From a virus, in IMG/VR virus record IMGVR_UViG_3300005753_000022, positions 1-34,776 of that record: DNA of 34,776 bases; one strand, given 5' to 3'. The notes under the pieces are model-generated. The model did not search any database. It was not told the DNA's origin and was given only the letters and a program-made list of their open reading frames with translations. The position numbers and the translations under genes are program-made. Within the stretch, counting starts at the first letter, position 1, and the number at the start of each line of letters is the position of its first letter. This document shows, piece after piece, positions 1-28,391 of the stretch.

Positions 1-34
1 TACGCGAATATGCCTTTGTATAATTGTGTAGGGC

Positions 35-70: not shown

Positions 71-77
71 CAAGCAT

Positions 78-625: not shown

Positions 626-636
626 ATATCTTCTCC

Positions 637-3078: not shown

Positions 3079-3149
3079 GTATCACCCATCTAAAGATCAG
3101 GGGTAAAAATCCCAACTACCCCATCACTTAAATACAAATGTTATCGCTG

Positions 3150-3959: not shown

Positions 3960-3960
3960 G

Positions 3961-4167: not shown

Positions 4168-4199
4168 TTAATCCCCTTTAACCTCTTCTTAAGCCCTGT

Positions 4200-6389: not shown

Positions 6390-9300
6390 GCGGCTTTCCC
6401 CTGCTTATTGACGCGAATATTGAGACGATTTTTACGCTTTTGGCTTGCTTGATTTTTGATTATTTCGCCCCCTTGATTGAGGGATATTTTTGCGTATTGC
6501 TGCTGCGTCATATGCAGCGATACCACTTCTTTTTTAAGTGATATCACCTCACCCGTTAAACGCTCAATTTGAGCCATTAGCGCTTGGTTTAACTCATTTG
6601 ATTCTGTCGATCTCGACGGCGAACGTGCGACAGTCGCTTTAAAATAACGCTGTATTGCAAAGCGTGATTGGGCATCCACAACAATTTCATCTTTATGTAA
6701 ATTCGCAGGAAAATCGTCATAAGGAATCCCTTCGCTATTGCCTGTCTTGTAGCTTGTTTTTTCGCCTTTAATGCCGCCCGTTTTACGTCCACCCTGTGTA
6801 TTAATTCCGTCGCCATTGGTATTTTGTGCAGTGACAAGTATCGTCTTACCTTGCGAGCTGGTAAATGAGCTAATATCTGACTGTAAAATCTGATTAGATG
6901 TATAGCCTGCTGACAACAGCTTATTAACATCTGACGCAACGCCCGCTGATGCGGCTTGTGATGTTACTTGTGCTCTTTCTGCAACTTGTACTTGTATGTT
7001 TGCTATTGACGCACTGAGTGCACCAAACAGCGGGGTTAATACACCCGCTAATTCATTCGGCAATGACCCTAAACTGCTGTTGATAATGCTTAGCCAGACC
7101 TCTTGATCTAGGTTGGATTGATACAGGTCAGTAATACGCAAATATTCTGTTTTTGCTTGAGCCAATAAAGCCTCTTGCTTTCTGAGCAAATCAATTTGCG
7201 GGTCATGTAAATTTTCTATCTGCGCCGCTACACTTTCTAAACCTGTTTTTACGAAACTTTCGTCCTGCTGATACGTGTCACTGCTGCCGTAAATTTGACG
7301 GGATAACTCAAGGACGGTTTGCCCCGCTTTTGTTATTAATGCAGCCGATTCTGGATTGTTGCTATCCGCTTTTAGCTGCTCAAATTCTTTGCGTGCTGCG
7401 GTTAATTTATCAATCGGTATTAAACTCGACAGGTCGCTAAATTTAAGCTCCATTAAATAACCGCGTATATCTTTTGCGGTCTCTTTTAGGGTCTCAAATA
7501 CTTCAATTTGCTCACTAAAACTTTCCGTTAAAATATCTTTATTACGTTGATAATTATCACCCACCGCTTGTAGTTGTGTTTCAAATAATGACACGGTATT
7601 TGTGTAAGCATCGTTTGCGGCTTGCAGGCTGTGCAGCTCAATAATCATCGTGTCGCTCAAGCCTTCCACTTGCCATTTGTAATCCTGCAAGGCTTGCTTG
7701 CCGTGGATTAGCTCAATTCTTTGCTGCTTGATTTGCTCTTTGTAAGCATCAAACGCTGTACCAATACGCTGAGTCTCGACTAGTGAATCATTTGCAGCTT
7801 GTAGTGATTCAAGGTCATCTATCATTGAATCTGTTAGGTCATCAATACTGTATTTGTAATCTCGCTGCTGCTCTGTGCTTAGTGTTAATGTGCGGTTTGT
7901 TGCTTCAAGCTGCTGCTTATATTGCTCATATGTTGCCGTAATCGCCTTTTCTTTTTCTAAGGCACTTATTTGTAAACTGATTTCTTGCAAGCTTTCTTTC
8001 ATTGCTTTGCTGTATTCTTTTTCAGTCCAGATTCTGTTTTTTACACCATCTGTGGTATTGCTCAACTCAAAGTAATAGTCCTGCAATCCTTTTATCTCAC
8101 TATTAAAGCCATCGGTAATTTGCTGTGCTTTTTCCAGCGTGCTGAGCGTTTGACTGAGCGTTTCAAGGGTTGAAATCATTGCGCTGGTGTAATTCTGTTC
8201 TTGCCACGCTCTGCGGCGCACAGCTTTTTCTGAGTTTTGCAAGGCAAATATGCTGTCTTCGATGCCTCTTTTTGTTTGTTCGTATGACTCTTGCAGCTTG
8301 TTTAGTAAATCTTGTTCTTTTTTGAGTGCGGCGATGCGGTCTTTTTCGGCTTGTGTTTGTTCTTTGGTTGTATTTGTTGTGGCTTTGATTGCCTCGTTAG
8401 CAGCTGCCGTTGATGCTTTAAGGGTCGTGAAGGTGGATCGCAGGTCAGATAGTTGATCTATCATGTCGTCGGTTAAGCCTGACCCACTCCACTGCTGATT
8501 TTGAAATTCATCATCGCCTAGATCAATCTTGTCAATACTGTCTTGAATACTTCTTGAGGTGTCATTAAATGCATCTTTAACGATGCCTAAGCTGCTTGTT
8601 AATGTGTGAATTTTTGCGGGAACACCCTCTACTTCTTGACCGACCGATTTTGTACTCACCAGCAGGCTTGCTAGCTGCAAATCATAAACCTCGGTGATTT
8701 TTGCTAAATCCTGAGTTGATGCACCCAGCTCTGTAGCCGCATCGATTTGCTGCTGATAATCAAAATCCAGTTTTTGTTTAGCAAAGCTGCGTTTATCCAT
8801 TGTGAGTGCATTGTATTGGCTTTGCACGCCTGACATTAATAATGATAATTGAGATGCTGCATTAGATGCTTTTTGCGCGGCTATAAGTGCCGCGTCACCC
8901 AGCAAATCTAGCGCAGGGATAAACGCATTAAGGGAAACAAAGCTATCTTGCCCTGCTTGAGTTGTTAAATCCAAGCTCTGAATTAGGCTTTTTAGTCCTT
9001 CTACTGTTGTAATATTTGTATTGTTTTGGAGGTTCAGCACATCCAGTTGCGCGTGAGCTTGATCAATAAGCATTTGCTTTTGCTCGGCTTCGGAGTAAAG
9101 CAAATTAAAGTAGCTAGCAGATATACCGCCCAATGCATCCAAGCCACCCGCTGTAGCCACCAATGAACCTGCCGCCTGTATTGCATCTTTGCCCGTCAAT
9201 CCAAACTGTAGCCCTAGCGTCTCAGCCATTGCCGTGACAGATTGCACCTCTTGAAAAACGCGCCCCAGTGTCTCTGCTAAATTTTCACCCTGAAGCGTAT

Positions 9301-12300
9301 GTTGATCAAAATCAGTTCCAATTACGCCCTCAAATATTCCTGAAATTGTGTCACTTAACCAGTCTTGTATGCGGCTAGTCGCTTCTTCTTCTGATATATC
9401 TTGACCATTCTCTGTTAGTTGTATTTTAGCTAATGCATCTGTCGCGGCCTGCGAAATAGACGAACCAAACTTATCAACGACACTATTTACGCCTGTTTTA
9501 AGTTGATCAAGACCAATATCTGCCTCTTTAAACTGACTTAAACCTGTTATTAAACCGCTTTCAACGTCGCTTAATTGCGTGCTAATGACGCTCTCTGCAA
9601 AGCCCTCAATCGATGTTGGGTCTATTTTTTCGATGCCGTTTTTAAAGCCAAAAATGGCAGCGTCTGCGCCTTCGTAGCCGAAATATTCTGTAGCCTGCTT
9701 GATCGCTTCAACACTGCTATCAAATTGTGCTTGCAGTCTTTTTTGTAATTCTTGCTGCTCTTCATTGGTTTCTGTCCAATCCGTGCCGCGTTTTGTGCCA
9801 CCCACCCAACCCTTATTAATTGAGTAATCTTGCCAGTTTTGAGTCGTTACCTGACCATTTTCAAAACCTAAACCCACCCCTCTTGCATCATTATTTTTTT
9901 TGTGACCGCCTAGACCACCGAGCAATCCGCCCAGCAATCCGCCTGCCAGTGCGCCAATTGGACCCCCTATTGCCGCCATGCCAGCCATTGCACCTAGACC
10001 TCCACCGATGCCGCCGTTACCGCCAAACATTTTGTCACCAAAAAATCCACCAAGTGCGCCTGCTGCTCCAAACGCTAAGTTTGAAGTACCAACACCCTTG
10101 GAAAACATTTTTCCTGCCGTTGCACCGAATTTGTCGGCAAAAGTAACGATTCCTTCACCAATGGAATGCCCAAACAATAGACCGCTTTCACCAAATATAC
10201 TGCCGCCTTTACCTAGCAAGCCACCCATGCTACTCAAGCCACCTATGCCGCCACCTTGAGTTTGCATTCCTGCGCCACCATAACCTCCCGCGCCTGAAAT
10301 CATCCCCGTGACCGAACCCGTAATCGCACCCGTAAAAGGCTGGATTAGTGGCTGTAAGATATTTTTAGCAAAGAATGATTTTATATCACCCCACCAATTT
10401 TTAAGAATATCCGACCAAGATTGCGTACCGCCTAGCAATTTATCCGCAATACCGCCTGCTAAATCATCACCGATACTTGTAATTTCTTCGGCAATCTTTT
10501 TTGCTTGCTCTGTGCGCTTTTTGTCAACTTCAATTTGTTTTTCGAGGGCGGTTACTGCGTCGTAACGGGCTAAGATTTCAGCCTGAAGTGAAGGATTCAG
10601 GTTTTCTTGTGAGACTTTTAATTCTTTGTAAGCCCGTTTGCTTAGGTTTAATTTTGCAAACTGATCGTCTAGGCTTTTGAGTTGATCCTTGTAATATTTT
10701 TGGGCTTCTTTTTTAAGTTTGTTGGTCTCTTCGAGGGCTTTGTTAACGTTTTTCATGGCTAACAGCTCAGTAATCATTGATCCCGTGAGTCCTTGTTTTT
10801 CTTTTTTGAATTCGTACGCGGCTGCTTTACCCTTGGTTAGCTCGATGTGGTGTGCTTCGATGCTATTTTTTTCATTTTCGTAGGCTTTTTGTATGCGTTC
10901 GTGTTCTTTGGCTAGGTCGCTGGTGGCTTTCTTTGCGGCTTTTTGGGCGGTGGTTAGTTTATTGGTTGCCTTTTTGGTGGCTTTACTTGCACCTGTTAAT
11001 TTCTTGGCTTTTTTGGCGGCTTCTTCCATCGCACCTGCTGCATCTGAGTGACCTTTTTTTGCAAGATTCGCAGATTTTTCGCTGATTCTTTGCGCTTGAT
11101 CGAGTGCGCCTTGCGCTTTAACTGCGCTGTAATACTCGTTGTTTAGTTCAGCCTTAGCTAGCTTTGCGTCAATACTCGCCTTTCGATCCGCCTTTGCATT
11201 TTCAACCCGCAAGCGAGATTGATTGTTCGCTTTTTCTAGGATTGATTCGTGCTTCTGTATTTCTGCATTATTTGCAGATAAGGCAGCGTTGTAATTAACT
11301 TCCTCTTCCTCAGCCTTTGCCTTTGCATTCGCAACATTATTTATTGCACTTTCGTATTGCTTGGCTTTTGCTATTGCCGCTGCTGCCGTCTCAGTTGCAC
11401 CAATGGCATTTAATAAACTGGCTCGCGCATTTTCCAGTTTTGCAAATCCCGATAAAATAAAATCAATCGCGTGCGCTGCCGCAAGACGCAGGCCATTCAT
11501 TGCGACATTCCATGCATGTTTTATATGCACAAAACCATTGTTTAGTCTAATGCCCATCACGCTAAACCATGTGTCTATTTTATTTACGGTTCGATGTGCA
11601 AACTCCCCAACAATGATAAATGCAAGCTCGACGTTTACAGGTAAATCAAGAAACGCATTGATAATACCCTGCACACTTAAAGAATAATCTCTTTCTCCTT
11701 GATTTGCTGAATCTGCAACAATACTGTTTAGCAGTGAAAAAACAGTACTTACATTGCTAACAACATCATTTGCCCCGCTGCTAATGCTGTCAAATAAATC
11801 GATCCAGCTGCTAAAATCATCAGCAAGACTATCGCCAAATTGTCCACTGTCAATTTCCGAGGCCAAATTCCCAATTGACCCAATAAACCCATCAATTGCG
11901 TCTCGATGGCCATCAATCCACTCGGTGATTTCAGGGGCAAACGCCACGGCAATTTCGCTGCCCGCCAAACTAACCTGTTTACCTACGGCAGATACAGATG
12001 ATTTTAGCTCTTTTAGCTCTACATTTGCGCGTGACAGTAAATCGGAATCTTCTGCGGTAATAATTGACTTTCTTTGCTCTGCAACCCTTTGCACTTCTTC
12101 CAGCGCCGCGAGATTATCCTTAAGTATGGGTAGGAGCTTTGAGCCATCGTTTGCCAATGACTCCAATAAAAAGATCTCTTCAGCGCGGGATATTTCTGTT
12201 GTATTTTGCAGTGCCTCATTGACTGCTGTGAGTATTTCTACAGGATTTTGATTAACTAATTCTTTTATATCAAGATTGAGTTTTTCAATTATGTCTTCCG

Positions 12301-13042
12301 CTTCACCCCCGCCCGTAATCGAAAAGTCACCTATTTTGTCTGACACATCTTGTAGTATGTCGCGCATTTTCTCGCCCGACAAACCCACTTTATCGGCGGC
12401 CATCTGCCAGACTTGTAGCTCTTGTGCATTTACACCAAGCTGTTCACTGGCTCGCATTAACTCATTATTTAGCTCTATAAAATGCGTTGTTACTTTTACC
12501 AAGCCAATTGCGGTCGCAGCGACCGCAACGGCTATAAGGGCATTTCTTACATTAAATAGTGAAGGGGTAACTTGATTGGATTGATTTGCCAATCGTTCAG
12601 ATGCCCGCGCTGCATTATCTGCTTGCTGTGCATAGTTTATGCTGGCTTGATTAATGATCTCAATGGCTTGTCTTAAATCCCGAAATGAATCATTTGAGGC
12701 GCGATTGCTGGTGGCTAGGCGCTGTGCGGATTGTGCGGCACTATTAGTAGCATCGGTATAATACTGACTCTGGTTTGCTGCTTGCTGTACTGAGCGTGCG
12801 TAGGTGTTAATGCCCGTATCGTTGGCAGCTAGACGCTGACTGTAGTTTGCAGCATTATCGAGATGACCGCCGAGTGATCGACTGGAGGTTGATGCAAGGT
12901 CAAGAGCGTGACTGTAAGCGCCTGTACCCTCTGCCGCTGTTCGTGACGCAGTTGCAATATTTGACACAGACGCATTGAGCGCGGCGATATTTCGCTGTGC
13001 TTCCTGCGTGTTTGCATCAATTCTTATTGCAATATTTGCCAT
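6386..13042 (-). CDS. tape measure protein
   Basis: A 2218-aa protein filling 19% of the phage. Long Ala/Gln/Lys/Glu-rich helical regions flank a Gly-rich hydrophobic centre (about residues 925-1050, DNA 9890-10270), the usual tape-measure layout. Near the C-terminus the segment NLHKDEIVVDAQSR resembles a conserved motif of tape measures from siphoviral Mu relatives. Residues about 1520-1810 carry five diverged copies of a ~58-residue unit. The length fixes tail length; at about 0.15 nm per residue it implies a tail near 330 nm. It follows the G/GT chaperone cassette, as is normal. Many Pro-rich frames opposite the Gly-rich part are shadows. Confidence 0.93.
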   Translation of the reverse strand: MANIAIRIDANTQEAQRNIAALNASVSNIATASRTAAEGTGAYSHALDLASTSSRSLGGHLDNAANYSQRLAANDTGINTYARSVQQAANQSQYYTDATNSAAQSAQRLATSNRASNDSFRDLRQAIEIINQASINYAQQADNAARASERLANQSNQVTPSLFNVRNALIAVAVAATAIGLVKVTTHFIELNNELMRASEQLGVNAQELQVWQMAADKVGLSGEKMRDILQDVSDKIGDFSITGGGEAEDIIEKLNLDIKELVNQNPVEILTAVNEALQNTTEISRAEEIFLLESLANDGSKLLPILKDNLAALEEVQRVAEQRKSIITAEDSDLLSRANVELKELKSSVSAVGKQVSLAGSEIAVAFAPEITEWIDGHRDAIDGFIGSIGNLASEIDSGQFGDSLADDFSSWIDLFDSISSGANDVVSNVSTVFSLLNSIVADSANQGERDYSLSVQGIINAFLDLPVNVELAFIIVGEFAHRTVNKIDTWFSVMGIRLNNGFVHIKHAWNVAMNGLRLAAAHAIDFILSGFAKLENARASLLNAIGATETAAAAIAKAKQYESAINNVANAKAKAEEEEVNYNAALSANNAEIQKHESILEKANNQSRLRVENAKADRKASIDAKLAKAELNNEYYSAVKAQGALDQAQRISEKSANLAKKGHSDAAGAMEEAAKKAKKLTGASKATKKATNKLTTAQKAAKKATSDLAKEHERIQKAYENEKNSIEAHHIELTKGKAAAYEFKKEKQGLTGSMITELLAMKNVNKALEETNKLKKEAQKYYKDQLKSLDDQFAKLNLSKRAYKELKVSQENLNPSLQAEILARYDAVTALEKQIEVDKKRTEQAKKIAEEITSIGDDLAGGIADKLLGGTQSWSDILKNWWGDIKSFFAKNILQPLIQPFTGAITGSVTGMISGAGGYGGAGMQTQGGGIGGLSSMGGLLGKGGSIFGESGLLFGHSIGEGIVTFADKFGATAGKMFSKGVGTSNLAFGAAGALGGFFGDKMFGGNGGIGGGLGAMAGMAAIGGPIGALAGGLLGGLLGGLGGHKKNNDARGVGLGFENGQVTTQNWQDYSINKGWVGGTKRGTDWTETNEEQQELQKRLQAQFDSSVEAIKQATEYFGYEGADAAIFGFKNGIEKIDPTSIEGFAESVISTQLSDVESGLITGLSQFKEADIGLDQLKTGVNSVVDKFGSSISQAATDALAKIQLTENGQDISEEEATSRIQDWLSDTISGIFEGVIGTDFDQHTLQGENLAETLGRVFQEVQSVTAMAETLGLQFGLTGKDAIQAAGSLVATAGGLDALGGISASYFNLLYSEAEQKQMLIDQAHAQLDVLNLQNNTNITTVEGLKSLIQSLDLTTQAGQDSFVSLNAFIPALDLLGDAALIAAQKASNAASQLSLLMSGVQSQYNALTMDKRSFAKQKLDFDYQQQIDAATELGASTQDLAKITEVYDLQLASLLVSTKSVGQEVEGVPAKIHTLTSSLGIVKDAFNDTSRSIQDSIDKIDLGDDEFQNQQWSGSGLTDDMIDQLSDLRSTFTTLKASTAAANEAIKATTNTTKEQTQAEKDRIAALKKEQDLLNKLQESYEQTKRGIEDSIFALQNSEKAVRRRAWQEQNYTSAMISTLETLSQTLSTLEKAQQITDGFNSEIKGLQDYYFELSNTTDGVKNRIWTEKEYSKAMKESLQEISLQISALEKEKAITATYEQYKQQLEATNRTLTLSTEQQRDYKYSIDDLTDSMIDDLESLQAANDSLVETQRIGTAFDAYKEQIKQQRIELIHGKQALQDYKWQVEGLSDTMIIELHSLQAANDAYTNTVSLFETQLQAVGDNYQRNKDILTESFSEQIEVFETLKETAKDIRGYLMELKFSDLSSLIPIDKLTAARKEFEQLKADSNNPESAALITKAGQTVLELSRQIYGSSDTYQQDESFVKTGLESVAAQIENLHDPQIDLLRKQEALLAQAKTEYLRITDLYQSNLDQEVWLSIINSSLGSLPNELAGVLTPLFGALSASIANIQVQVAERAQVTSQAASAGVASDVNKLLSAGYTSNQILQSDISSFTSSQGKTILVTAQNTNGDGINTQGGRKTGGIKGEKTSYKTGNSEGIPYDDFPANLHKDEIVVDAQSRFAIQRYFKATVARSPSRSTESNELNQALMAQIERLTGEVISLKKEVVSLHMTQQQYAKISLNQGGEIIKNQASQKRKNRLNIRVNKQGKAA

Positions 13043-13066
13043 TTACTTAACTACCTGCTTTAAAAT

Positions 13067-13459
13067 TCAGTCTTGGTTTTGTTGGCGGATTTCTTCGACA
13101 TAGCCCGCCGCGATTTGTTGTACTTGTCGATAATATTTCTTGGCCTTCTTGGTATTACGGGGCATATCATCCTTAATCCACTGGTATGCAAATGCACCGT
13201 TCAAGGCCACTAACTCGCCCATTCCCGCATAAAGCCATTGGTCGTTTAGCTCTGAAAAATAGCGATAGGCTCGCCAGTTTTTTTTCCATAAATAAAATTC
13301 GATGACCTCAGATTCTTGGGATATTTTCTTTATGACTTCTTTGCCTACCAAGATGCTAGCGATAGAAACGAGGCTAGCAGGGAGTCGTGATAAACGATGT
13401 CGATGACGATTAGCAGCATGATGATCTTCAGGTCTACCGCCCGCCAAAACAACTCCCAA
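13067..13459 (-). CDS. tail assembly chaperone, T extension (expressed by -1 frameshift)
   Basis: This frame lies exactly in the -1 frame relative to the upstream chaperone ORF. Its nominal TTG start (13459) has no ribosome site. The heptamer GGGAAAC at 13474-13468 is in the correct phase, immediately before the upstream ORF's TGA, so a -1 slip yields a fusion of about 259 aa: 126 residues of G followed by 133 residues encoded from 13468 to 13067. The extension is basic and helical with WxAYRYF and YQWIKDD segments, similar in flavour to DUF1799-type proteins before tape measures. The product would be the GT chaperone that coats the tape measure during tail assembly. Confidence 0.75.
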   Translation of the reverse strand: MGVVLAGGRPEDHHAANRHRHRLSRLPASLVSIASILVGKEVIKKISQESEVIEFYLWKKNWRAYRYFSELNDQWLYAGMGELVALNGAFAYQWIKDDMPRNTKKAKKYYRQVQQIAAGYVEEIRQQNQD

Positions 13460-13464
13460 TTCTT

Positions 13465-13845
13465 TCAGTTTCCCAAGCGTTCTTGTTTATATTTGCTGTC
13501 CGCTGCGGAAGCATACATTGCAGAAATTAAGGGGGTGACATAGGCAGGATGCTCATAAATCCAATCAAACACTTCATCACCAAAAGGATAGGCTTTTTGG
13601 TTATCGTCATATAATGTAATGCTGATAACACGGGCTTTAATGATTGCTTTGATCTTGTCTTTGTCGCCCGCTGCGGCATTGATTTTATCTGACAGTGCAT
13701 CACGATCTTTCTCACCATCGCCGCGCACCACGGTTGCAAAATATTTTTCACGGGTGTCTGCGGTTTCTGCAAATAGTTTATGTTCAACGTGGTTGCTGCG
13801 GTTCATGCCTTTTTTGATGATTAGCTTTGGTTTTTCTGTTGCCAT
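13465..13845 (-). CDS. tail assembly chaperone, G protein
   Basis: A 126-aa protein. The start at 13845 (MATEKPKL) is preferred over 13884 because the longer form would run into the upstream gene, which ends at 13851. It is a soluble, charged protein encoded between the tail tube gene and the tape measure, the invariant position of G-type chaperones in long-tailed phages. It ends at a TGA directly after a GGGAAAC slippery heptamer, so most ribosomes make G and a fraction make G-T. The role as chaperone is known for lambda gpG/gpGT and inferred here from position and the slippery site. Confidence 0.75.
   Translation of the reverse strand: MATEKPKLIIKKGMNRSNHVEHKLFAETADTREKYFATVVRGDGEKDRDALSDKINAAAGDKDKIKAIIKARVISITLYDDNQKAYPFGDEVFDWIYEHPAYVTPLISAMYASAADSKYKQERLGN
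13468..13474 (-). promoter_or_regulatory. programmed -1 frameshift slippery site GGGAAAC
   Basis: On the minus strand the codons read TTG GGA AAC TGA, so G-GGA-AAC is a canonical X-XXY-YYZ heptamer in frame, abutting the zero-frame stop. The -1 frame is open to 13067. Lambda uses the similar GGGAAAG between G and T. No strong downstream stem-loop was seen by eye. Confidence 0.8.
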
Positions 13846-13850
13846 GATTT

Positions 13851-14819
13851 TTACTCTTCGATAATGACTGCTGCGGTTAAGCAACGGAATTTTTGGTTAA
13901 TAAAGGTGTTGCTGCCTGCGCCTGCCTCTCGGGTTGTTTCGCCCGATACCTCGACTGAATCGCAGGTGATTTTGATTCTTTTGCCTGCTTCTGATCCACA
14001 GCCAAAGCTGATCGCAATGCTTTTACCGTCCAAACTCCAAGGATTAAATTCACTGGAAAAATCAGGTAGCTTGTATTTAATGCTAAACATGGATTCGGCG
14101 TTGGTCGCTTCTGCACCCGCTTGACAACCTGCTGTGGGGCTAATTGCAATGGTCATTGCGGCAATATTGTCATTGTTCATTTTTTCAAGGCAAAGATTAT
14201 GCGTTGTATCATCGATAACAATGTGGCAATCGTATCCGATTTCGCCTTCCCAACTTTCGCCAATATTCGTTTTTTGAGCCTTCCAATCTGGCGTGATTGT
14301 TGTTGTTTCTGATGGGGGCATATAGCTTGCTAGCAGATTGGTAATATTAAAACGGGGGACTTTTGCGGCTTCCCACGTTACCCCAACCTGTCCACGACCG
14401 TTGAACCCTTGGTACTCATAAGCCTTGTCGCCATCAATGTCTGCAATCATTTTTACGGTAGCTGAAGGTAGATCATTAATATTGCCGCGCGTATATGTAA
14501 CATTTTTATCCGCTTCAACTAGCGAGTTCATGCCGCAGATATTTAATACACCCTCCAGAACCGAAGGCGTACCTGCCGCACCCGAGTAATTCCATAAAAT
14601 ATCAAAACCAAATACATTACGGAGATTGGTTTTTCGGACGGGCTTATAAAGTGGATCATCAGAGACAGGATTCATTTTATCTTCATCGCTGACTCCGACT
14701 TGTTCTTTTAGATTTTCCACCAATAGCGCTGTACCGCCATTGAGCGTCGCAGCTTGACCCCATGCTGTCTGCACAGAAAATAGCAAGAGTGCTTGTTCAT
14801 ACGATACGGTCTTAGGCAT
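13851..14819 (-). CDS. major tail tube protein-like
   Basis: A 322-aa protein located between head-tail connector genes and the tail chaperone cassette. Composition is beta-rich (Gly, Thr, Ser, Asn) with a C-terminal strand-rich half (for example KIKITC-like stretches and GETTREAGAG), consistent with tail-tube proteins of siphoviral Mu relatives such as the B3/D3112 group. There is no sheath gene beside it, so the tail is non-contractile. At 322 residues it is longer than lambda gpV. The identification rests on position, length and composition, not on a recognised signature. Confidence 0.65.
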   Translation of the reverse strand: MPKTVSYEQALLLFSVQTAWGQAATLNGGTALLVENLKEQVGVSDEDKMNPVSDDPLYKPVRKTNLRNVFGFDILWNYSGAAGTPSVLEGVLNICGMNSLVEADKNVTYTRGNINDLPSATVKMIADIDGDKAYEYQGFNGRGQVGVTWEAAKVPRFNITNLLASYMPPSETTTITPDWKAQKTNIGESWEGEIGYDCHIVIDDTTHNLCLEKMNNDNIAAMTIAISPTAGCQAGAEATNAESMFSIKYKLPDFSSEFNPWSLDGKSIAISFGCGSEAGKRIKITCDSVEVSGETTREAGAGSNTFINQKFRCLTAAVIIEE

Positions 14820-14822
14820 TTT

Positions 14823-15254
14823 TTATCCTTCCCTATAGCAATAATTTTGCTGTGTTTCAATTAATGTGGAGACGCTGCAAATAATATCGTATTGCCATAC
14901 GCCATCGGTTTGCTTTACGAAACGGTCTGATTTAATTGTGAGCGCATTGCGCCAGTCGCTTGCTTTATAGCCTGCCAGCGCTGTAATCACATGCTCTAAT
15001 GTTGACTCTGCTGTATTTGATGCACGCAAATTTCTGAGCAATACCGTAATTAATATATTCATTGCCCGTCCTTGAGTCGGCGCAGAATTACCGTATTGAC
15101 TGCCGTGGTATGCAACCAATACAACCCCTTGCGGCTGAATCAGTTGATAGGTTTCAGGGCGGTCAGGGTACGATTCTGCGGTTAATTCAACACTCGAATC
15201 GTCGTTTAAGTGTTCAATAATTTGATCGATGGAGCGACTGTTGTTAAAACTCAT
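14823..15254 (-). CDS. Mu gp37-like / tail terminator-type protein
   Basis: A 143-aa protein overlapping the upstream morphogenesis gene by 11 bp and ending 3 bp before the tail-tube gene. Its pattern (IDQIIEHL at the start, YQLIQPQGVVLVAYHGSQYG in the middle, LRNLRASNTAESTLEHVITALAGYK, then ...DIICSVSTLIE) matches the gp37-type family of Mu-like phages. That family occupies this slot and probably serves at the head-tail or tail-terminator joint. Family recognition by eye is moderate; the order DUF1320, gpG-like, gp37-like is the one expected in this lineage. Confidence 0.7.
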   Translation of the reverse strand: MSFNNSRSIDQIIEHLNDDSSVELTAESYPDRPETYQLIQPQGVVLVAYHGSQYGNSAPTQGRAMNILITVLLRNLRASNTAESTLEHVITALAGYKASDWRNALTIKSDRFVKQTDGVWQYDIICSVSTLIETQQNYCYREG

Positions 15255-15756
15255 GCATCAGATACTCTTGCATCATGTGTTTTATTTCAGCCATGTTTTC
15301 GCTGCTTACCCCTAAAAATGGACGCGCAGGAATATCGGAGCCGGGGTGATTAACCGAATTTGCAAATACGGTTCTTCCGCCTAGGTTAAATCTTAATGCA
15401 CCGTGTGCCGAGGTGATGGTATGCGGGCGGGTTTTGCCACCGAATTGATGGATTGCGGCGTAGACAATATTGCTTGACCCGACGGTTACAGAAGTTGTTG
15501 TGGTGGAAAAATTAATGCTGTCGCGTAGGTGTCCGTGGTCTAAGAGTGTTTTACCGCCTTCTTCTTGCGCTCTGGCACTTTCTTTCCATGCCGAGCCGTC
15601 GGGGGCTATGTTCGTGTAAAAACGGTCTTTTGTTGTTTCAAGTAAGTAGCCGCCGATATTTCGCATTAGCGGTTCAAGGTCTTGAGTGCGCCTTAAAAGT
15701 GATTCAAGGTCAGTTTGAAGGCTGTTTGTATCGACATTAATCGTAATCGAAGCCAT
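15244..15756 (-). CDS. phage virion morphogenesis protein (Mu gpG-like tail completion)
   Basis: A 170-aa protein with the hallmarks of the phage virion morphogenesis family (PF05069): PDGSAWKES near residue 52, then LLDHGHLRDSI, then IHQFGGKTRPH and the C-terminal IPARPFLGVS motif. In Mu the gpG gene lies beside F; here F is on the opposite arm, 18 kb away, while this gene stays with the other connectors. It is thought to act in tail completion or head-tail joining. It overlaps the gp37-like gene downstream and directly follows the DUF1320 gene. Confidence 0.88.
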   Translation of the reverse strand: MASITINVDTNSLQTDLESLLRRTQDLEPLMRNIGGYLLETTKDRFYTNIAPDGSAWKESARAQEEGGKTLLDHGHLRDSINFSTTTTSVTVGSSNIVYAAIHQFGGKTRPHTITSAHGALRFNLGGRTVFANSVNHPGSDIPARPFLGVSSENMAEIKHMMQEYLMHEF

Positions 15757-16191
15757 TTAATATTGCTCCCATTTGAACTGACTGTTCGATTTTTTTACGA
15801 TATAACTGCCTGCGTTATCTTGTGAACCTGTCTGATCATCCAGACTGACAATATTGGCTTTACGGTCACGTACCTGCTTTAGCCAACTAATGACTTGATT
15901 TCTACGGCTGATAATATTATCGGTATCGCCGCGCTGCCTGCGATTAAACAAGCGGTAGATAGTTAAATCTGCACAGGCTTCGCGTAATTGCCCGATTGCA
16001 GATTCTTCTATTGCTGCAATCGGCAAGGGATAACGCACGGATAAATAGCTGTCAATTTCATCGCTGGATGATTGCATATAGACTTCTAATAGCGTCTGGT
16101 CAATTTGACCTGCATTCGTATCATCTGTGAGCTGCAATACTGTTGACTCTGTAATGCTATTGATGATGTCTTGGGTTTGACAGTAAGCCAT
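15757..16191 (-). CDS. DUF1320 protein (Mu gp36-like head-tail connector)
   Basis: A 144-aa protein with the DUF1320 layout: a short N-terminal helix starting MAYCQTQDI, a region IDSYLSVRYPLP near residue 55, the helix ADLTIYRLFNRR, and a C-terminal segment beginning VISWLKQVRDRKANI. In Mu, gp36 follows the major capsid gene, as here, and is believed to be a connector at the capsid vertex. It is followed without a gap by the morphogenesis gene. Confidence 0.88.
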   Translation of the reverse strand: MAYCQTQDIINSITESTVLQLTDDTNAGQIDQTLLEVYMQSSSDEIDSYLSVRYPLPIAAIEESAIGQLREACADLTIYRLFNRRQRGDTDNIISRRNQVISWLKQVRDRKANIVSLDDQTGSQDNAGSYIVKKSNSQFKWEQY

Positions 16192-16210
16192 GCGGTTTTT
16201 CCCTTAGTCT

Positions 16211-17143
16211 TTATGCCAGCACATCTATCATAAGGTAACCAAGGTCTTTGGCGGCCACCACTTCTTTGACTGATTCGCCTACTCGCACGCGTTGTCCGCC
16301 GCGTAGCCCAATATTTTTATCTTCCCACTGACCTGAAACCCGTTGCCCAAATTGAGCCGTGAAACCCCACGTTGTGCCGTTGCGGTTATCTGCCATCGCA
16401 TCTTGATAGTGCATTGCGAGCATATCGCCCCATGTTCTCTCTAACTTGACCGCTTGGCCTTTTTTGGCAGTATTGATATTTGCACGTCCTACGAGCAATT
16501 GATCAAACTCTAGCAATTCCGCAACCTGTGCCTGACTTGCCATGCCTGAATCGCCTGAATTACCGTGTACCGCTTTTACAATCTGCGGGTGCATTCGCAT
16601 CGCTGACCAGACTGATTGGCCCAACGTTAAGGTATTGGGAGTCATCACTACTTTATTCTTGGCTGCTTCGATCATGCCGAGAATATCGGTATTGGGATTA
16701 TTAAAGCCTTTACCTGCCTCAATTTTTTGCTGATTATCGTCTGCATAATTATCAGGATCGTTAACGATGTTTGATACACGCACTTCACGATCCAACTCAA
16801 TTAAGTTAGTTAATTGTTCTGTACTGCGATTGACGGGACTAAAACGGGCATCTGCATTATTAATATCGGACTGGGGAATTGCATCCTCCAAGCCATAATC
16901 TGCGGTACTTTCTGTTACCTCTTCGCCTGAAAAGCTGATTTCAGGGGTGCGACTCTTTCTACCCACCTGCGTGTTCGGCACTGTGAAGCCTTCAGCTAAA
17001 TCAAATCGCGTGTACTTAAATTCAGAACGGGCGAGGGGGGGAATACGGGGCATTAATAGGTCGGCAATCAAACTTTTATTAACATAGGCAATGGCAATGG
17101 CGGTTAAAATGGGATCGACGGGAAACGGATAACGTTGTGGCAT
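16211..17143 (-). CDS. major capsid protein
   Basis: A 310-aa protein preceded by AGGAA at good spacing from its ATG. It follows protease/scaffold and the decoration-like gene and precedes DUF1320, the capsid slot of Mu-like phages. The N-terminal part (MPQRYPFPVDP, then a Pro-rich LMPRIPP segment) and the middle ELDREVRVSNIVNDPDNY region followed by a helix-rich domain fit the HK97-fold capsids found in this lineage. It carries no long N-terminal delta domain, in agreement with a separate scaffold made from the protease gene. Confidence 0.85.
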   Translation of the reverse strand: MPQRYPFPVDPILTAIAIAYVNKSLIADLLMPRIPPLARSEFKYTRFDLAEGFTVPNTQVGRKSRTPEISFSGEEVTESTADYGLEDAIPQSDINNADARFSPVNRSTEQLTNLIELDREVRVSNIVNDPDNYADDNQQKIEAGKGFNNPNTDILGMIEAAKNKVVMTPNTLTLGQSVWSAMRMHPQIVKAVHGNSGDSGMASQAQVAELLEFDQLLVGRANINTAKKGQAVKLERTWGDMLAMHYQDAMADNRNGTTWGFTAQFGQRVSGQWEDKNIGLRGGQRVRVGESVKEVVAAKDLGYLMIDVLA

Positions 17144-17203
17144 GATAAAATTCCTAACTAATTTTAATGATTTTTACGGGTTACTGCTGGGCAGGTGACG
17201 AAA

Positions 17204-17554
17204 CTAGGAAAGACTAATGAGCACTTCGCCGATGTCGCCTTTAATGCCTTTTAGTAGGGCAACCCCGATTACACGCTCTCCGTCTGCTGCAACTACGGCT
17301 CTTCCTTCTGCATCACTGCTGAGTTTGTCACCAAATTTAATCGGTTCGCCGTATTCGATATCTGCCGATCCGCCTTGAATGACATCCAGCACATCGTCTT
17401 TATTGTCTGCGCCTAAATCCGATACACCTAAGATCGGGTCTGTCGCAGTGGTGGCTTGTTTGACTAAGCCTGTCTCGTCATCGGCGGCAACTATTCGATG
17501 CGCTTCAATTGCACCAAAGGCGAGATAGGTTAAAATTAATTCATTCGCGGCCAT
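17204..17554 (-). CDS. DUF2190-like capsid decoration protein
   Basis: A 116-aa protein whose ATG overlaps the protease stop (TAATG). It is a small beta-rich, acidic protein with the DUF2190 pattern: a first strand pair, HRIVAADDETG, DPILGVSD, a DVIQGGSADIEYGEPIKFGD core and VIGVALLKG near the end. Proteins of this type sit between the protease and major capsid genes and decorate or stabilise the shell. The 60 bp between it and the capsid gene hold only the capsid ribosome site. Confidence 0.75.
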   Translation of the reverse strand: MAANELILTYLAFGAIEAHRIVAADDETGLVKQATTATDPILGVSDLGADNKDDVLDVIQGGSADIEYGEPIKFGDKLSSDAEGRAVVAADGERVIGVALLKGIKGDIGEVLISLS

Positions 17555-18069
17555 TATTTTGATTCCTGCTGTGTGACTTGATAAACCGCTTCGGATACGG
17601 AAATTACCACGCCTTTATCGGCTTGTTCTTTTTTGAATTGCACCGCTTTTAGTGCGATGGCATCGGCATCGGTATTATCTAATGCGGCATCTTTACTGCT
17701 GCTCGACCCGTTGGCATTGCTTTGCATGGCAACTTGCACAGGGAGTTCTGCCACAAAGTCTGCAAACCATGTTTTATTGGGTTTGTTAACTTTACTTTTA
17801 TCGGCTCGACTGAATTCAAAGGTTGTCTTATCGTCCAGTGTTGATGTGAACTCTAAGGCTCCTTCTGCTTGGGCGGGGGTTAAGCGTCCTGCGGTAATGG
17901 CATCGGCAAGGGTTTTTTTCCATTCAGCCGTTTCACGTTTTTTGACTTCGGCGGCAAAATCTACTTTATTTTTTGTTTCAAGTGCATTGAGTTTGCCTTG
18001 ATAGGTTTCTTCTGCGAGCTGGCGGCCTGCTTCTTTGGCATCGTCTAATTCTTCCCGAGTCGCTGGCAT
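17554..18069 (-). CDS. internal-start scaffold protein (Mu gpZ equivalent)
   Basis: Within the protease frame, ATG at 18069 (MPATREELDDAKEA) is preceded by a perfect AGGAGG at 18082-18077 with a 7-nt spacer, a far better ribosome site than the one at the gene's own start. The 171-aa product would be the helical, charged C-terminal portion alone. In Mu, the scaffold gpZ is produced the same way from inside gene I. The internal start is seen directly; its use is inferred. Confidence 0.7.
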   Translation of the reverse strand: MPATREELDDAKEAGRQLAEETYQGKLNALETKNKVDFAAEVKKRETAEWKKTLADAITAGRLTPAQAEGALEFTSTLDDKTTFEFSRADKSKVNKPNKTWFADFVAELPVQVAMQSNANGSSSSKDAALDNTDADAIALKAVQFKKEQADKGVVISVSEAVYQVTQQESK

Positions 18070-18726
18070 CGCAGACCCTCCTGTTTGTTTATTGAAATTT
18101 AGGACGGGGTCGCCCTGTGATTTATTGTCTTCTGCGGTGGCTTCTTCTATGCGTTTGGCGTTCCATTCCATATCTTCTATTTCGTATTCTGGAATGACTT
18201 TATCGGCGGTGGCAATATCGAATTTATCAATGACAAAATTACGCATCGCCCGCGCCAAGCGCTTTAAGGAATACGGGGTTTGTGTATCGATAAACTGAAA
18301 ATCAAAATACTCTTGTGCCGCACTGAATGAAACCGCTTCTAGCCCTTCGACCGCAGGCGGCTCTGCACCGAGCCACGCAATGTGGTCGAGCTTCCAGCCC
18401 ATGCTGTCTTTAATTAAGCGCACGGAGCGTTCAAACAGTGCGCCCGATTCGATTAATGCTTGGAACTGTTCGTTGATATTGATTGATTTAACGTAGAGTG
18501 AATCGCCGTCGCGCTTTAGCTCCACCCCTTGACCGTAGGCAAAGGGTGAATACAGTTGGTCATGTGTAATGATGTGCGGAATGGGGTTTTTACTGATGTC
18601 GCGGTTTGCTATTTGATCGAGATCATCACGCGTAAACGTCAGGTGCTCTGCATTTTTACCCGCATGTTTTCCCGTGCGAAAAATTTCGATCCATCCGTCT
18701 AAACCTGCCATACCTTCTGCCATCAC
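17554..18726 (-). CDS. Mu gpI-like prohead protease with C-terminal scaffold
   Basis: A 390-aa protein and the first gene of the leftward late operon. GTG (18726) and ATG (18723) are adjacent possible starts; neither has a strong Shine-Dalgarno. The N-terminal ~170 residues match the Mu-like protease family (PF10123): WIEIFRTGKH, FTRDDLDQIA, IPHIITHDQ (likely including the catalytic His), LFERSVRL and LGAEPPAVEGL. The C-terminal half is charged and helical, a scaffold. A separate scaffold can be made from an internal start at 18069. The upstream 60 bp contain the shared late activator motif. Confidence 0.88.
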   Translation of the reverse strand: MMAEGMAGLDGWIEIFRTGKHAGKNAEHLTFTRDDLDQIANRDISKNPIPHIITHDQLYSPFAYGQGVELKRDGDSLYVKSININEQFQALIESGALFERSVRLIKDSMGWKLDHIAWLGAEPPAVEGLEAVSFSAAQEYFDFQFIDTQTPYSLKRLARAMRNFVIDKFDIATADKVIPEYEIEDMEWNAKRIEEATAEDNKSQGDPVLNFNKQTGGSAMPATREELDDAKEAGRQLAEETYQGKLNALETKNKVDFAAEVKKRETAEWKKTLADAITAGRLTPAQAEGALEFTSTLDDKTTFEFSRADKSKVNKPNKTWFADFVAELPVQVAMQSNANGSSSSKDAALDNTDADAIALKAVQFKKEQADKGVVISVSEAVYQVTQQESK

Positions 18727-18741
18727 AACTCATGAAAAACG

Positions 18742-18747
18742 AGTGTA
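18742..18747 (-). promoter_or_regulatory. candidate -10 box of leftward late promoter
   Basis: TACACT on the minus strand lies 25 bp downstream of the dyad core of the late activator motif and about 16 bp before the protease start. No -35 box is seen at the proper distance, as expected for an activator-dependent Mu-type promoter. The equivalent box at the rightward late operon (27419-27424) sits 27 bp from its motif. Confidence 0.4.
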
Positions 18748-18765
18748 TCGCTGGGACTTCCGCGA

Positions 18766-18787
18766 AATAAGACGAAATTTTTCGCAG
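18766..18787 (-). promoter_or_regulatory. late activator site upstream of leftward late operon
   Basis: On the minus strand this reads CTGCGAAAAATTTCGTCTTA, an inverted repeat CGAA-n4-TTCG in a conserved frame. It matches 16 of the first 18 bases of the repeat at 27377-27394 before the other late operon (only the central AA/TT differs). A weaker copy may lie upstream at 18800-18815 (12 of 16 bases). The Mor-family protein encoded at 26468 is the likely ligand. Confidence 0.6.
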
Positions 18788-18988
18788 ATACATTTTTTTG
18801 TGAAATAAATCGATGGGGATGCTTTGCTTGCTAATATGACCCGATTCAAAACCGATTCAAGATTCCCGCCATCAATTCAAGTTTTTTTAATTATGGCATT
18901 GCTTGTATTGTGATTGATCGTCGTTTAGGAGGGCTTATTTTTTATACTGGGGAAGGCAGAGCAGAGGCTTCTGCTTGCCCTGTACTTT
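18788..18988. other. non-coding control region between late promoter and zinc-ribbon ORF
   Basis: No convincing gene lies here. GGCAGAGCAGA at 18955-18965 can pair with TCTGCTTGCC at 18970-18979 (one bulge, loop GGCT). On the plus strand a T-run follows seven bases later, which would suit a weak rightward terminator; on the minus strand there is no U-tract. Repeated GATTCAA (near 18842, 18853, 18860) is noted without a known role. Confidence 0.4.
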
Positions 18989-19162
18989 TTATTCCACGTC
19001 TTTAGATGCTGTCACAGAAAAACGATAGCCACAAAAGTAACATTGATTAGGATTAGCGGAGTGAAGGGGTGTTTTTATTTCACAGCGTGGACACTTTTCA
19101 GGATGATTTTTATGGCCTGAAACAATGAATTCAAATGAATTCATTGTTTCAGATATTTTCAT
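18989..19162 (-). CDS. small zinc-ribbon protein, 57 aa
   Basis: An open frame of 57 codons starting at an ATG that overlaps the 3' end of the repressor gene by 14 bp, or alternatively at an ATG six codons later. It contains two knuckles, KCPRCE and QCYFCGYRF, spaced 17 residues apart, the geometry of a zinc ribbon, so selection on this frame is plausible despite its length. It would be co-transcribed with the repressor. Mu encodes a small zinc-binding translational regulator, Com, but not in this position and I see no convincing similarity. There is no good ribosome site, so expression would rely on coupling to the repressor. Function unknown. Confidence 0.55.
   Translation of the reverse strand: MKISETMNSFEFIVSGHKNHPEKCPRCEIKTPLHSANPNQCYFCGYRFSVTASKDVE
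19118..19151. repeat. 16-bp perfect inverted repeat over the repressor stop codon
   Basis: TGAAACAATGAATTCA at 19118-19133 and its exact reverse complement at 19136-19151 are separated by only AA. The centre contains ATTCAAATGAAT (19129-19140), the same element found in the operator region on the other side of the repressor. It includes the repressor stop codon. No U-tract follows, so an operator role is more likely than termination. Confidence 0.65.
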
Positions 19163-19168
19163 TTGAAT
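19129..19168. promoter_or_regulatory. downstream operator pair OD1 (19129-19140) and OD2 (19157-19168)
   Basis: ATTCAAATGAAT at 19129-19140 and, on the opposite strand, ATTCAAATGAAA at 19157-19168 are 28 bp apart centre to centre. They match the elements at 19604-19676. Placed at the 3' end of the repressor gene and toward the leftward late operon, they could let the repressor loop DNA across its own gene or block leftward read-through. Confidence 0.5.
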
Positions 19169-19586
19169 ACGGCTTAAGCATTGTTTTAATCGCTGCTTGT
19201 ATTTCCACAGGTGATTCTTTGAATTGATTATAAAGCTTTATTGATTCACTATTTTGCGCTTCACGATAATAACGCGGAATTTCTTCCTTGACCTTTAAAA
19301 CCACTTTACCGATTTCATTCAACTTACAAATACAGGCATCTAGTGCATCACTAGGGTTTTCTTTTTCGCAATTTCCCGACTCAAGGTGTGTCTCAGTCAG
19401 AATGTAAACAATATCAACATTATTCTTATAAAGATTAACCAGATAAACAGTATTTGGGAACCGCTCACCTTTTTCGTAGTTAGCTTGAGCTAATCTTTGA
19501 ACTCCCCCCATTTTACCAAAATCATCCTGATTAAGTCCAAGCTTTAACCTTTCCTTTTTTATTCTTTCATGCACTGAACTACCCAC
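19149..19586 (-). CDS. phage repressor, XRE-family HTH
   Basis: A 145-aa protein. The GTG start at 19586 is supported by AGGAG six bases upstream. Residues about 5-60 form an XRE/Cro-CI helix-turn-helix (ERIKKERLKLGLNQDDFGKM, then QRLAQANYEKGERFPN). The C-terminal part is helical and too short for an S24 peptidase, so RecA-triggered self-cleavage is not expected. It is transcribed away from the early operon and flanked by ATTCAWATGAAT-like sites. It should hold the early promoter silent in the lysogen, the role of Mu c, though Mu c is of another DNA-binding family. Confidence 0.82.
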   Translation of the reverse strand: MGSSVHERIKKERLKLGLNQDDFGKMGGVQRLAQANYEKGERFPNTVYLVNLYKNNVDIVYILTETHLESGNCEKENPSDALDACICKLNEIGKVVLKVKEEIPRYYREAQNSESIKLYNQFKESPVEIQAAIKTMLKPYSNENI

Positions 19587-19716: not shown

Positions 19717-19748
19717 AGAGCAAAATTATACACATTAACGAGTTGACT

Positions 19749-19994
19749 ATGAAAAAGGTTACAGCAGTTCTTCTAATGAGAGACATAAGCATACATGACC
19801 GTATTCATGCTCTGTCATTAAGTGGATACAGCCAGCAAGATGTAGCGAGAAAATGCGGCGTCACGAGAGGCGCAGTAAATCGAGTCATTCGCAACACTGG
19901 GAAAAGCGCATTTATTGCCAGAGAAATATCCAGCGTTACGGGGCTTTCAATACAAACACTTTGGCCTGACGGTCGATATAAAAAAGGAATATAA
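19749..19994 (+). CDS. ner: Ner-like early regulator
   Basis: An 81-aa DNA-binding protein, first gene of the early operon. ATG at 19749 is preferred over TTG at 19743; neither has a strong ribosome site. A helix-turn-helix (about residues 20-45, GYSQQDVARKCGVTRGAVNRVIR) is followed by a helix and the terminal LWPDGRY, the same ending style as Mu Ner (IWPSRY). Ner represses the early and repressor promoters after induction, steering the phage to lytic growth. The palindrome at 19693-19716 is a likely target. Confidence 0.78.
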   Translation: MKKVTAVLLMRDISIHDRIHALSLSGYSQQDVARKCGVTRGAVNRVIRNTGKSAFIAREISSVTGLSIQTLWPDGRYKKGI

Positions 19995-26467: not shown

Positions 26468-26791
26468 ATGACATCGCTTGGCACTATGAGAGAAATAAGT
26501 TTGATTATTGGCGTGCAAGGCGCTAACAATCTTACTCATGCTTTTTCAAAGCAAAACTTATACATCTGTAAGAATCCTGACTGCGCTCACGATTTGAAAG
26601 ATATATTATCTTGCCAAGCGCTGTTTGAATTATGCCGCTGCTTTGGCGGAACAACTGTGTATATACCTTCCGCCAAATCTTATCGAAATCAGCGCATCAG
26701 AGAAGCGGGAAAATCAAAAACCACACGGCAACTCGCCGTTGAATATCAACTGAGTCAACGCATGATTCAGTTGATATTATCTACGTCATAA
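26468..26791 (+). CDS. mor: Mor-family late transcription activator
   Basis: A 107-aa protein starting directly after the gemA stop. It has the Mor/C pattern: an N-terminal helical dimerisation half, the beta strand GGTTVYIP near residue 60, RNQRIREAG, and a C-terminal helix-turn-helix (LAVEYQLSQRMIQLIL). In Mu, Mor activates the middle promoter and a second member, C, the late ones. No second member is present, so this protein probably controls late transcription directly. Candidate binding sites stand upstream of both late operons. Confidence 0.85.
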   Translation: MTSLGTMREISLIIGVQGANNLTHAFSKQNLYICKNPDCAHDLKDILSCQALFELCRCFGGTTVYIPSAKSYRNQRIREAGKSKTTRQLAVEYQLSQRMIQLILSTS

Positions 26792-26806
26792 TATTTTATG
26801 ATGTAG
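26781..26806. terminator. bidirectional terminator between mor and membrane gene
   Basis: CTACGTCATAA (26781-26791) pairs over 11 bp with TTATGATGTAG (26796-26806), one wobble, loop TATT. It carries the stop codons of both convergent genes. The stem is AT-rich, with only a short T-run on the plus side. Confidence 0.5.
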
Positions 26807-27254
26807 TTTCATCTCTTACAATAATCACTTCCTTATCTTTCCCCACGGAAAATCCTATCACTAAAAATACCACGCCCATAAAGAACCCTAAAAAACCTGA
26901 AATCATTGTCATAATTCCACCCCCAATCACTGCCCCTGCCGCTGCTGCAGCGCTATTTTCTATATCCGCATTAATTGCGACTTCACTCACACTGACACCT
27001 GCAAACAAGAATGATGCCAACGGCAACAAAAACGCCAGCACTGCTGATAAGAGTAATGCCCGTCTCCATGCTTTTCCGCCTGTTTTTGCCGTAAAAGACA
27101 AGACTGCAACCAATAACCATACAATACCAAACGCCGCAGGGGCGACCTGACTGCTTGCCTCTGGGTTGTTTGCAAACGGTAAACCTATTACCATTGCTCC
27201 TAACGATGCCGCTATCAAGCCGCCTATTATTGTCGCTATAATTTTTCCAAACAT
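26796..27254 (-). CDS. multi-spanning membrane protein, probable moron
   Basis: A 152-aa protein. The start at 27254 (MFGKII) is preceded by AAAGG with 9-nt spacing; an extended frame to 27287 exists. There are three to four hydrophobic segments: residues about 5-25, 36-55, 68-90 and 115-142, the last long and Gly/Ala-rich and perhaps two passes. Short acidic/polar C-terminus. It is the only gene facing left on the rightward arm, with its own promoter upstream and a bidirectional hairpin downstream. That arrangement is typical of morons expressed in the lysogen, for example superinfection exclusion proteins. A holin is less likely given the orientation. No family recognised. Confidence 0.6.
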   Translation of the reverse strand: MFGKIIATIIGGLIAASLGAMVIGLPFANNPEASSQVAPAAFGIVWLLVAVLSFTAKTGGKAWRRALLLSAVLAFLLPLASFLFAGVSVSEVAINADIENSAAAAAGAVIGGGIMTMISGFLGFFMGVVFLVIGFSVGKDKEVIIVRDETTS

Positions 27255-27285
27255 GCCTATAAACCTTTTATTAAAGTAAAAGCAC

Positions 27286-27314
27286 AATCTAATGTGCCGT
27301 CATTCAAATTACAA
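27286..27314 (-). promoter_or_regulatory. promoter of the membrane-protein gene
   Basis: On the minus strand TTGTAA (27314-27309), 17-bp spacer and TAGATT (27291-27286) form a reasonable sigma70 promoter, 32 bp before the chosen start. It points away from the rightward late promoter and should work without the late activator. Confidence 0.4.
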
Positions 27315-27338: not shown

Positions 27339-27405
27339 CTGCGAATTATTTCGCTTATTCTTGCATTAGTTACGTCCTGCGAATTATTTCGTCTATTCCT
27401 GCGTT
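27339..27405 (+). promoter_or_regulatory. duplicated late activator site of the rightward late operon
   Basis: Two 29-bp direct repeats, 27339-27367 and 27377-27405, agree at 25 of 29 positions and start 38 bp apart. Each opens CTGCGAATTATTTCG, containing the dyad CGAA-n4-TTCG. The second matches the motif upstream of the leftward late operon at 16 of 18 bases. They are likely binding sites for the Mor-type activator. Confidence 0.65.
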
Positions 27406-27418
27406 GCAAATAGCAGCA

Positions 27419-27424
27419 TATTAT
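27419..27424 (+). promoter_or_regulatory. candidate -10 box of rightward late promoter
   Basis: TATTAT lies 27 bp downstream of the proximal dyad and 31 bp before the muramidase start. There is no -35 consensus at the proper distance. The geometry places the dyad near -45, close to where Mor sits at the Mu middle promoter. Confidence 0.45.
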
Positions 27425-27455: not shown

Positions 27456-28391
27456 ATGGCAGCAAAAACAAATTGGGCGGCAATCGACCGCTTGGACGGC
27501 TCACTCGATGGTGTGTTTGATGGTGTAGAAGTGACTGCACTGCAAGCCGTTCTTGCGGTTGAGTCACTGGGTGACGGCTTCCTGAGCAATGGGCGGCCTA
27601 AAATTTTATTTGAAGGTCATCAATTTTATCGGGCGCTTAAAAAGCAAGGTATTGATCCTAATACTCACATGGCTGGCAATGCAGATATTATTTATCGGCG
27701 CTGGACTAAGAAACACTACAAGGGCGGATCAGCAGAATATGGACGTTTAGCCCGTGCAGTGGCAATCAATGAAACCGCTGCGCTTGAATCTGCCTCTTTC
27801 GGCATCGCACAGGTAATGGGCTTTAATCATCGTTTGTGTGGTTACAACACCGTGCAAGCCTTTGTTGAGGCGATGAATGACCATGATAAGCAAGTGATGG
27901 CTTTTTTGTCTTACCTTAAAAAGACAGGTATCTGGAAACATATTCGTGCTAAAAAATGGCATACCGTCGCACGGATGTACAACGGGCCGGGTTATCGCAA
28001 GAATCGTTATGCCAGTAAGTTAGCCCGCGCCTATCGCGCTGCTAATTATGACCCGCAGGCAGAATTTCCCAACCTGATGAAATCTAAAACTATACAGGGT
28101 GGTTTAGTCACGGGAGGTGGCATTGGCGCGGTGCTACTTGAAGTCGGTTCAGGGGTGCAATCTGTTTCACCCGAATTGGTTTCCGATGCGGTTAGTGCGT
28201 CTCTTTCTGATCAACCCGTTTTAATCAATCCTGAACTTATCGATACGGTACAAACCGTGGCTTCTTACGCTTTAGATGCTCAATTGCATCAAACATTGGG
28301 TTATGCGGGTTTAGCGGCACTGGTGGCAGTGGCAGGGATTGCGTATGTGCTGTATGCCCGCTTTAGTGATCGTTTAACGGGGGTTAAGTGA
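27456..28391 (+). CDS. endolysin: N-acetylmuramidase with C-terminal membrane anchor
   Basis: A 311-aa protein, first gene of the rightward late operon. AGGAGG at 27438-27443 lies 12 nt before ATG 27456; the nearer ATG at 27451 is out of frame. Residues about 25-190 match the N-acetylmuramidase family (PF11860): AVESLGDGF with likely catalytic E36, PKILFEGHQFYR, ESASFGIAQVMGFNH and WHTVARMYNGPGY. It cuts glycan strands. After a linker, the last ~30 residues contain one hydrophobic segment (YAGLAALVAVAGIAYVLY), an unusual C-terminal anchor. No N-terminal signal is seen. Confidence 0.88.
   Translation: MAAKTNWAAIDRLDGSLDGVFDGVEVTALQAVLAVESLGDGFLSNGRPKILFEGHQFYRALKKQGIDPNTHMAGNADIIYRRWTKKHYKGGSAEYGRLARAVAINETAALESASFGIAQVMGFNHRLCGYNTVQAFVEAMNDHDKQVMAFLSYLKKTGIWKHIRAKKWHTVARMYNGPGYRKNRYASKLARAYRAANYDPQAEFPNLMKSKTIQGGLVTGGGIGAVLLEVGSGVQSVSPELVSDAVSASLSDQPVLINPELIDTVQTVASYALDAQLHQTLGYAGLAALVAVAGIAYVLYARFSDRLTGVK

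Follow-up and report, generated by a model that had tools for sequence, protein, structure and literature searches.

In phage Mu, the activator Mor binds to a dyad in the middle promoter Pm that is centred at -43.5 and consists of 5-bp repeats separated by a 6-bp spacer, and this complex replaces the -35 element (PMC4390567). The late promoters in front of lys and in front of gene I are both activated by C, with only a 10-bp match in common (PMC4461284); the common match that we found in these two promoters is TCCCGCACCT. For the Burkholderia phage KS10, its authors proposed a DksA-like protein to coordinate two head modules (PMC2628397), and the question how split, opposed head-gene operons stay in step was left open.

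The DNA analysed here (the window, 34,776 nucleotides, IMG/VR record IMGVR_UViG_3300005753_000022) belongs to a Mu-like transposable phage, and the record is possibly incomplete. Its late genes form two opposed operons that flank the early region (Table 1). An assembly chimera was considered as the source of this divided layout and could be ruled out by the occurrence of the same layout in six other records. Among the IMG/VR records searched, no close relatives of the window were found by Mor or protease sequence. A gene on the opposite strand occupies the gap that separates Mor from the right late promoter, and extra DNA is also found in this gap in two of the relatives discussed below (G005 and G011). 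It is likely, with a probability of roughly 0.82, that a single activator of the Mor type switches on both late operons directly, via dyads at the two late promoters, as judged from the sequences compared below.

Table 1 Coordinates of the main features of the window
Feature	Position	Strand or direction	Remarks
Tail, capsid and protease genes	1-18726	leftward	
Head maturation protease, Mu gene I type	17554-18726	minus	phrog_976, E 8e-55; first gene of the leftward late operon
-10-like box TACACT	18742-18747	minus	31 bp from the left dyad centre
Left activator dyad (putative), CTGCGAAAAATTTCGTCT	18770-18787	minus	16/18 to right copy; before protease-capsid-tail operon
Weak second left copy, CATCGATTTATTTCACAA	18798-18815	minus	11/18; 28 bp upstream; doubtful
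HTH regulator gene, probably repressor	19149-19586	leftward	
Small HTH protein, may be Ner	19743-19994	rightward	
Transposase	21414	rightward	
Transposition ATPase-like protein	23273	rightward	named from position and sequence
Gam and GemA, then Mor	Mor at 26468-26791	rightward	3' of the transposition ATPase-like gene
Mor-family transcription activator	26468-26791	plus	presumed binder of both dyads; PF08765 31.3 bits (cut-off 24.9); phrog_836
Terminator-like hairpin	26781-26806	plus	11 pairs and T-rich tail; at Mor gene end, apart from the dyads
163-aa hydrophobic protein	26796-27287	opposite strand	between Mor and right late promoter; no family match
Second right copy, CTGCGAATTATTTCGCTT	27339-27356	plus	16/18; 38 bp upstream of right dyad
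Right activator dyad (putative), CTGCGAATTATTTCGTCT	27377-27394	plus	before lysis-packaging operon
-10-like box TATTAT	27419-27424	plus	33 bp from the right dyad centre
Endolysin, N-acetylmuramidase	27456-28391	plus	PF11860 E 1.9e-60, phrog_1224; first gene of the rightward late operon
Endolysin, small DNA-binding protein, terminase, portal, gpF	from 27456; DNA-binding protein 29621	rightward	

The position and strand that the initial annotation had assigned to the left motif, as well as its agreement with the right repeat, were all exact, and the two differences between the copies both concern spacer bases. When the window was searched with the right 18-mer, allowing at most three mismatches, three matches were obtained, i.e. 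both right copies and the left copy, and there were none in 30 randomised windows (order-2 Markov). A combined shared-site score, composed of 20-mer identity, palindrome and -10, amounted to 27.4 for the two promoter regions of the window as compared to a null maximum of 26.6, by which all 40 shuffles were beaten, narrowly. The similarity that is shared by both fronts stops at the dyad edges. The strong second copy on the right-hand side is real; the second left copy that had also been annotated is indeed present at the indicated distance, and its match is marginal (p about 0.04, composition shuffle), so that this part of the annotation is doubtful. A further CGAA-N4-TTCG, some 90 bp away from the left dyad, falls within the coding region of the protease (18677-18688) and is probably a coincidence because it spells conserved IEIFR codons.

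The Mor-type protein is the best candidate for the binder of both dyads, because it is the sole Mor/C-family protein in the window and this family binds such dyads at these positions in Mu. Its score places it in PF08765 above the curated Pfam cut-off, and the phrog_836 family that it matches is that of a late transcriptional activator. In a profile search against solved proteins, Mu C and Mor were closest (E 2e-7 and 4.6e-5). An AlphaFold2 model with a pLDDT of 92.8 has a C-terminal HTH, and a Foldseek search with this model ranked Mu C first, with an E value of 0.31 that is not significant. There is one PF08765 match each in the window, G001, VW-6B, B3 and KS10 and there are two in Mu; a separate C protein under Mor control, as in the Mu-type cascade, was not found in the window or in these four phages.

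A terminase search of GTDB genomes yielded 42 loci, and the divided layout of the window, in which the capsid genes lie past the early region on the opposite strand, was found in six records (L005, L028, L043, L047, L054 and L057; also G001, G005, G007, G008, G011 and G012). These six phages are deep branches on the terminase tree and not one tight clade. The motif search in related phages that the initial annotation had suggested gave a clear outcome: all six carry their own matched dyad, both before the protease and after Mor. G001 has two copies of GGCGGGAAACATTTCCCGCC and G007 has two of GTGGAAGTGTTTCCCCCT; the dyad of G012 is GGCGTGAAAYATTTCACGCC, which recurs a third time in front of the tape-measure gene, whereas G008, G005 and G011 have GTGAA-N4-TTCAC forms. 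For G005 and G011, the right site came from a genome scan for the left dyad or its core. By identity alone, the pairs of G001, G012 and G007 beat all 200 shuffles; the G008 pair did not beat all of them (10 of 200). Extra copies are rare within each of these genomes, and a scan of IMG/VR for the tandem motif pattern gave two matches.

A GAA-N4-TTC core is common to the window and all six relatives, whereas the outer bases of the dyad (TGCGA, GGGA, GTGGA, GTGA) vary among the phages and match inside one phage, which points to a phage-encoded binder. This bears on the idea that the dyads are operators of another regulator, such as the phage repressor, a Ner-like protein, or a host factor like CRP. 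The CRP consensus is TGTGA-N6-TCACA, and exactly this sequence is carried by G008. However, matched outer bases that are specific for each phage argue against a host factor, and the early and repressor promoters of the window carry no copy of the dyad. Thus, we regard an operator function as unlikely.

With respect to promoter architecture, each of the 14 sites of the window and its six relatives has a -10-like hexamer that begins 31-33 bp past the dyad centre, and these sites had been located without the use of any -10 box. None of 1000 shuffles gave an offset peak as strong, and no -35 hexamer was found at any of the 14 sites. The left box of the window has the top -10 score in the stretch downstream of its dyad, at the same position as in the six relatives; the nearly equal distances that had been annotated for the two window sites are borne out, including the 2-bp difference between them. 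If the start site is assumed, the dyad centres of the window come at about -43.5 (left) and -45.5 (right), and those of the 14 sites near -44 to -46, in agreement with the annotated position near -45 and its likeness to the -43.5 of Mor at Pm. With this assumed start site, the arrangement is that of a Mor/C-like promoter, with a dyad near -43.5 and a -10 but no -35, and a matched element is present at the lysis and the protease I promoters in the window as well as in the six relatives. Two loci that had been kept out of the derivation of this architecture, L022 and L023, carry GGAGTGAAGCGTTTCACTCC and TCAGTGAAACGTTTCACCCC at 47 and 55 bp after Mor, respectively, with the -10-like sequences CAGTAT and CATGCT, both at an offset of 33.

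The dyads could also be imagined to be intrinsic terminators of the early (Mor) operon and of the repressor transcript instead of activator sites. One of them follows Mor and the other follows the repressor gene, in an orientation that is right for terminators, and in G012 and G005 a T run follows the palindrome, which in G012 folds at -16.2 kcal/mol; in these two phages, a single element may serve as both activator site and terminator. However, the combination of a stable stem and a T run that defines an intrinsic terminator was not found at the window dyads: the left dyad has no terminator-like site, the right dyad folds no better than shuffles, the copy at 27341-27354 is listed with a five-pair stem, and the Mor gene of the window is ended by a separate terminator-like hairpin. 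T runs are also absent from G001, G007, G008 and G011. Furthermore, terminators require neither a matched sequence at two loci nor a -10 at a fixed distance of 31-33 bp, and we consider this explanation improbable. Chance, or a duplicated stretch of shared ancestry without function, is hardly credible: the motif is AT-rich and the combined score of the window beats the shuffles only narrowly, but no match of such similarity is expected, the common stretch stops at the dyad edges, and the repetition of the pairing with different sequences in seven of seven divergent phages needs continued co-selection.

The same pairing, with other dyads, occurs in relatives with collinear late genes, namely VW-6B, B3, a Serratia phage and several phages of Burkholderiales. 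The VW-6B pair agrees at 18 of 18 positions, and the Serratia dyad is TGACGAACCCCATCATCTG. By the combined score, 15 of 31 loci (window and six relatives excluded) beat all 40 shuffles, a tally that includes near-duplicate pairs and a score that contains a -10 term; roughly half of the collinear loci have no significant pair by this measure. Because of this term, the -10 peak in the collinear set is partly circular, and the claim on spacing is therefore drawn only from the 14-site set. In KS10, GTGAA-N4-TTCA is found at three intergenic places only, before the protease, before the operon for holin, lysis and packaging, and before gp44, and these sites form a weaker set as they are less alike (12/20). 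An 18/18 pair score for KS10 was rejected as an artefact: Mor and the protease adjoin in this phage, so the compared regions overlap. The protease start annotated for KS10 (18120) slightly precedes the dyad (18126), and therefore the true start is probably an ATG near 18177, about 57 bp further downstream (locus L020). The tail gene block of KS10 (L020:31109), of G012 (L072, at the start of the tape-measure gene) and perhaps of B3 (L019:26819) contains the phage's own dyad once more, as a third copy; in B3, this site precedes the tape-measure gene and lacks a clear -10. The similarity of the Mor helix tracks that of the dyad, but the N-terminal half does so almost equally well, and for this reason the covariation was not used as evidence for contacts.

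An unexpected regularity concerns translation. In 18 of 20 phages, the protease has an in-frame start codon at a distance of 43-46 bp from the dyad centre, some 7 nt beyond the -10; start codons had played no role in the choice of sites, and for G011 we took the frame from the sequence itself. Examples are L005 (G001), L043 (G007) and L020:18126-18177, and the start codon of the lysis-side gene is likewise positioned in G001, G007, G011 and L023. This suggests that the protease mRNA is leaderless, and a start position that is nearly constant would predict leaderless late mRNAs in Gram-negative transposable phages. The two exceptions are G012 and the window. In the latter, an ATG does occupy the leaderless position (18733-18731), but not in the reading frame of the protease, which begins 7-10 nt further on, at GTG 18726 or ATG 18723; this start lacks a clear Shine-Dalgarno sequence.

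Control of both late operons by one Mor-type activator, as the initial annotation had envisaged, is thus supported by matched dyads with a -10 at 31-33 bp in seven of seven phages with a divided layout. Motif rarity, the seven matched pairs, the spacing of 31-33 bp at 14 sites, the two held-out loci, the collinear pairing, the single Mor-family protein and the likeness to the Mu promoters in geometry and in the genes served all count in its favour, whereas the 2-bp spacing difference between the window sites, the weak second left copy, the lack of any specific signal of the Mor helix in the covariation with the dyad, the share of roughly one half of collinear loci with no significant pair and the possible double role of some G012 and G005 dyads as terminators count against it. 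We infer that Mor binds to both sites, activates transcription from them and sets the timing. A dimer of the sole Mor-family activator of the phage, bound at about -44 to -46, would stand in for the absent -35 and recruit the host RNA polymerase to the -10 box alone, at a promoter in front of the endolysin that would be the equivalent of Mu Plys and at one in front of the protease that would be the equivalent of PI. As the early operon ends with the Mor gene, the two oppositely oriented late operons, one on each side of the early region, would be switched on together. We lean slightly towards a wider generalization, namely that in transposable phages of the B3/D3112/KS10 type all late promoters are served directly, via a phage-specific dyad, by a single protein of the Mor family. 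This would collapse the Mor-to-C cascade of Mu to a single step and would have allowed late genes to split and invert without losing co-regulation, with a leaderless protease mRNA. Such pairing may offer a sequence-level answer to the question of how split, opposed head-gene operons stay in step. It exposes the presumed Mor site of each phage without footprints, and from these presumed sites the specificity of the whole activator family could be read from genomes.

The comparison with described phages starts with B3 and VW-6B, Pseudomonas phages whose head and packaging proteins are related to those of the window (49-58%; major capsid protein of B3, terminase of VW-6B). Like the window, each has a single Mor-family protein and a common dyad before the lysis genes and before the protease, but their late genes are collinear and their dyads are different (TTTTCG-N6-CGAAAA in B3, GTGACGAACCCCGTCCCC in VW-6B). 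KS10 shares with the window a single Mor-family protein and two opposed head-gene modules around the early region, and is its mirror image: in KS10, the operon that comes after Mor is the protease-tail one, and it is the lysis-packaging operon that is inverted. A Mor site shared by the two modules would be a simpler proposal than a DksA-like protein. The third dyad copies in the tail genes of KS10, G012 and perhaps B3 recall the PP promoter of Mu.

With Mor at Pm of Mu, the window sites share the dyad design (TGCGA-N6-TCGTC) and its position, but the spacer is G/C-rich in Mu and A/T-rich in the window, and Pm is one middle promoter from which C is expressed, whereas the window dyad stands at two late operons. 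The action of Mu C at Plys and PI is the closer analogy, because the window sites precede the endolysin and protease I, the right one in the place of Plys and the left one in that of PI. In both systems there is one Mor/C-family activator, predicted to act as such in the window, together with a -10 box and a weak or absent -35. In Mu, however, C is a second protein under the control of Mor, the late genes run in one direction and lys and I lack a long dyad, whereas the window has one Mor-family protein and two opposed late operons. Control of both late operons by one activator is thus best read as a variant of the C-dependent late promoters of Mu.
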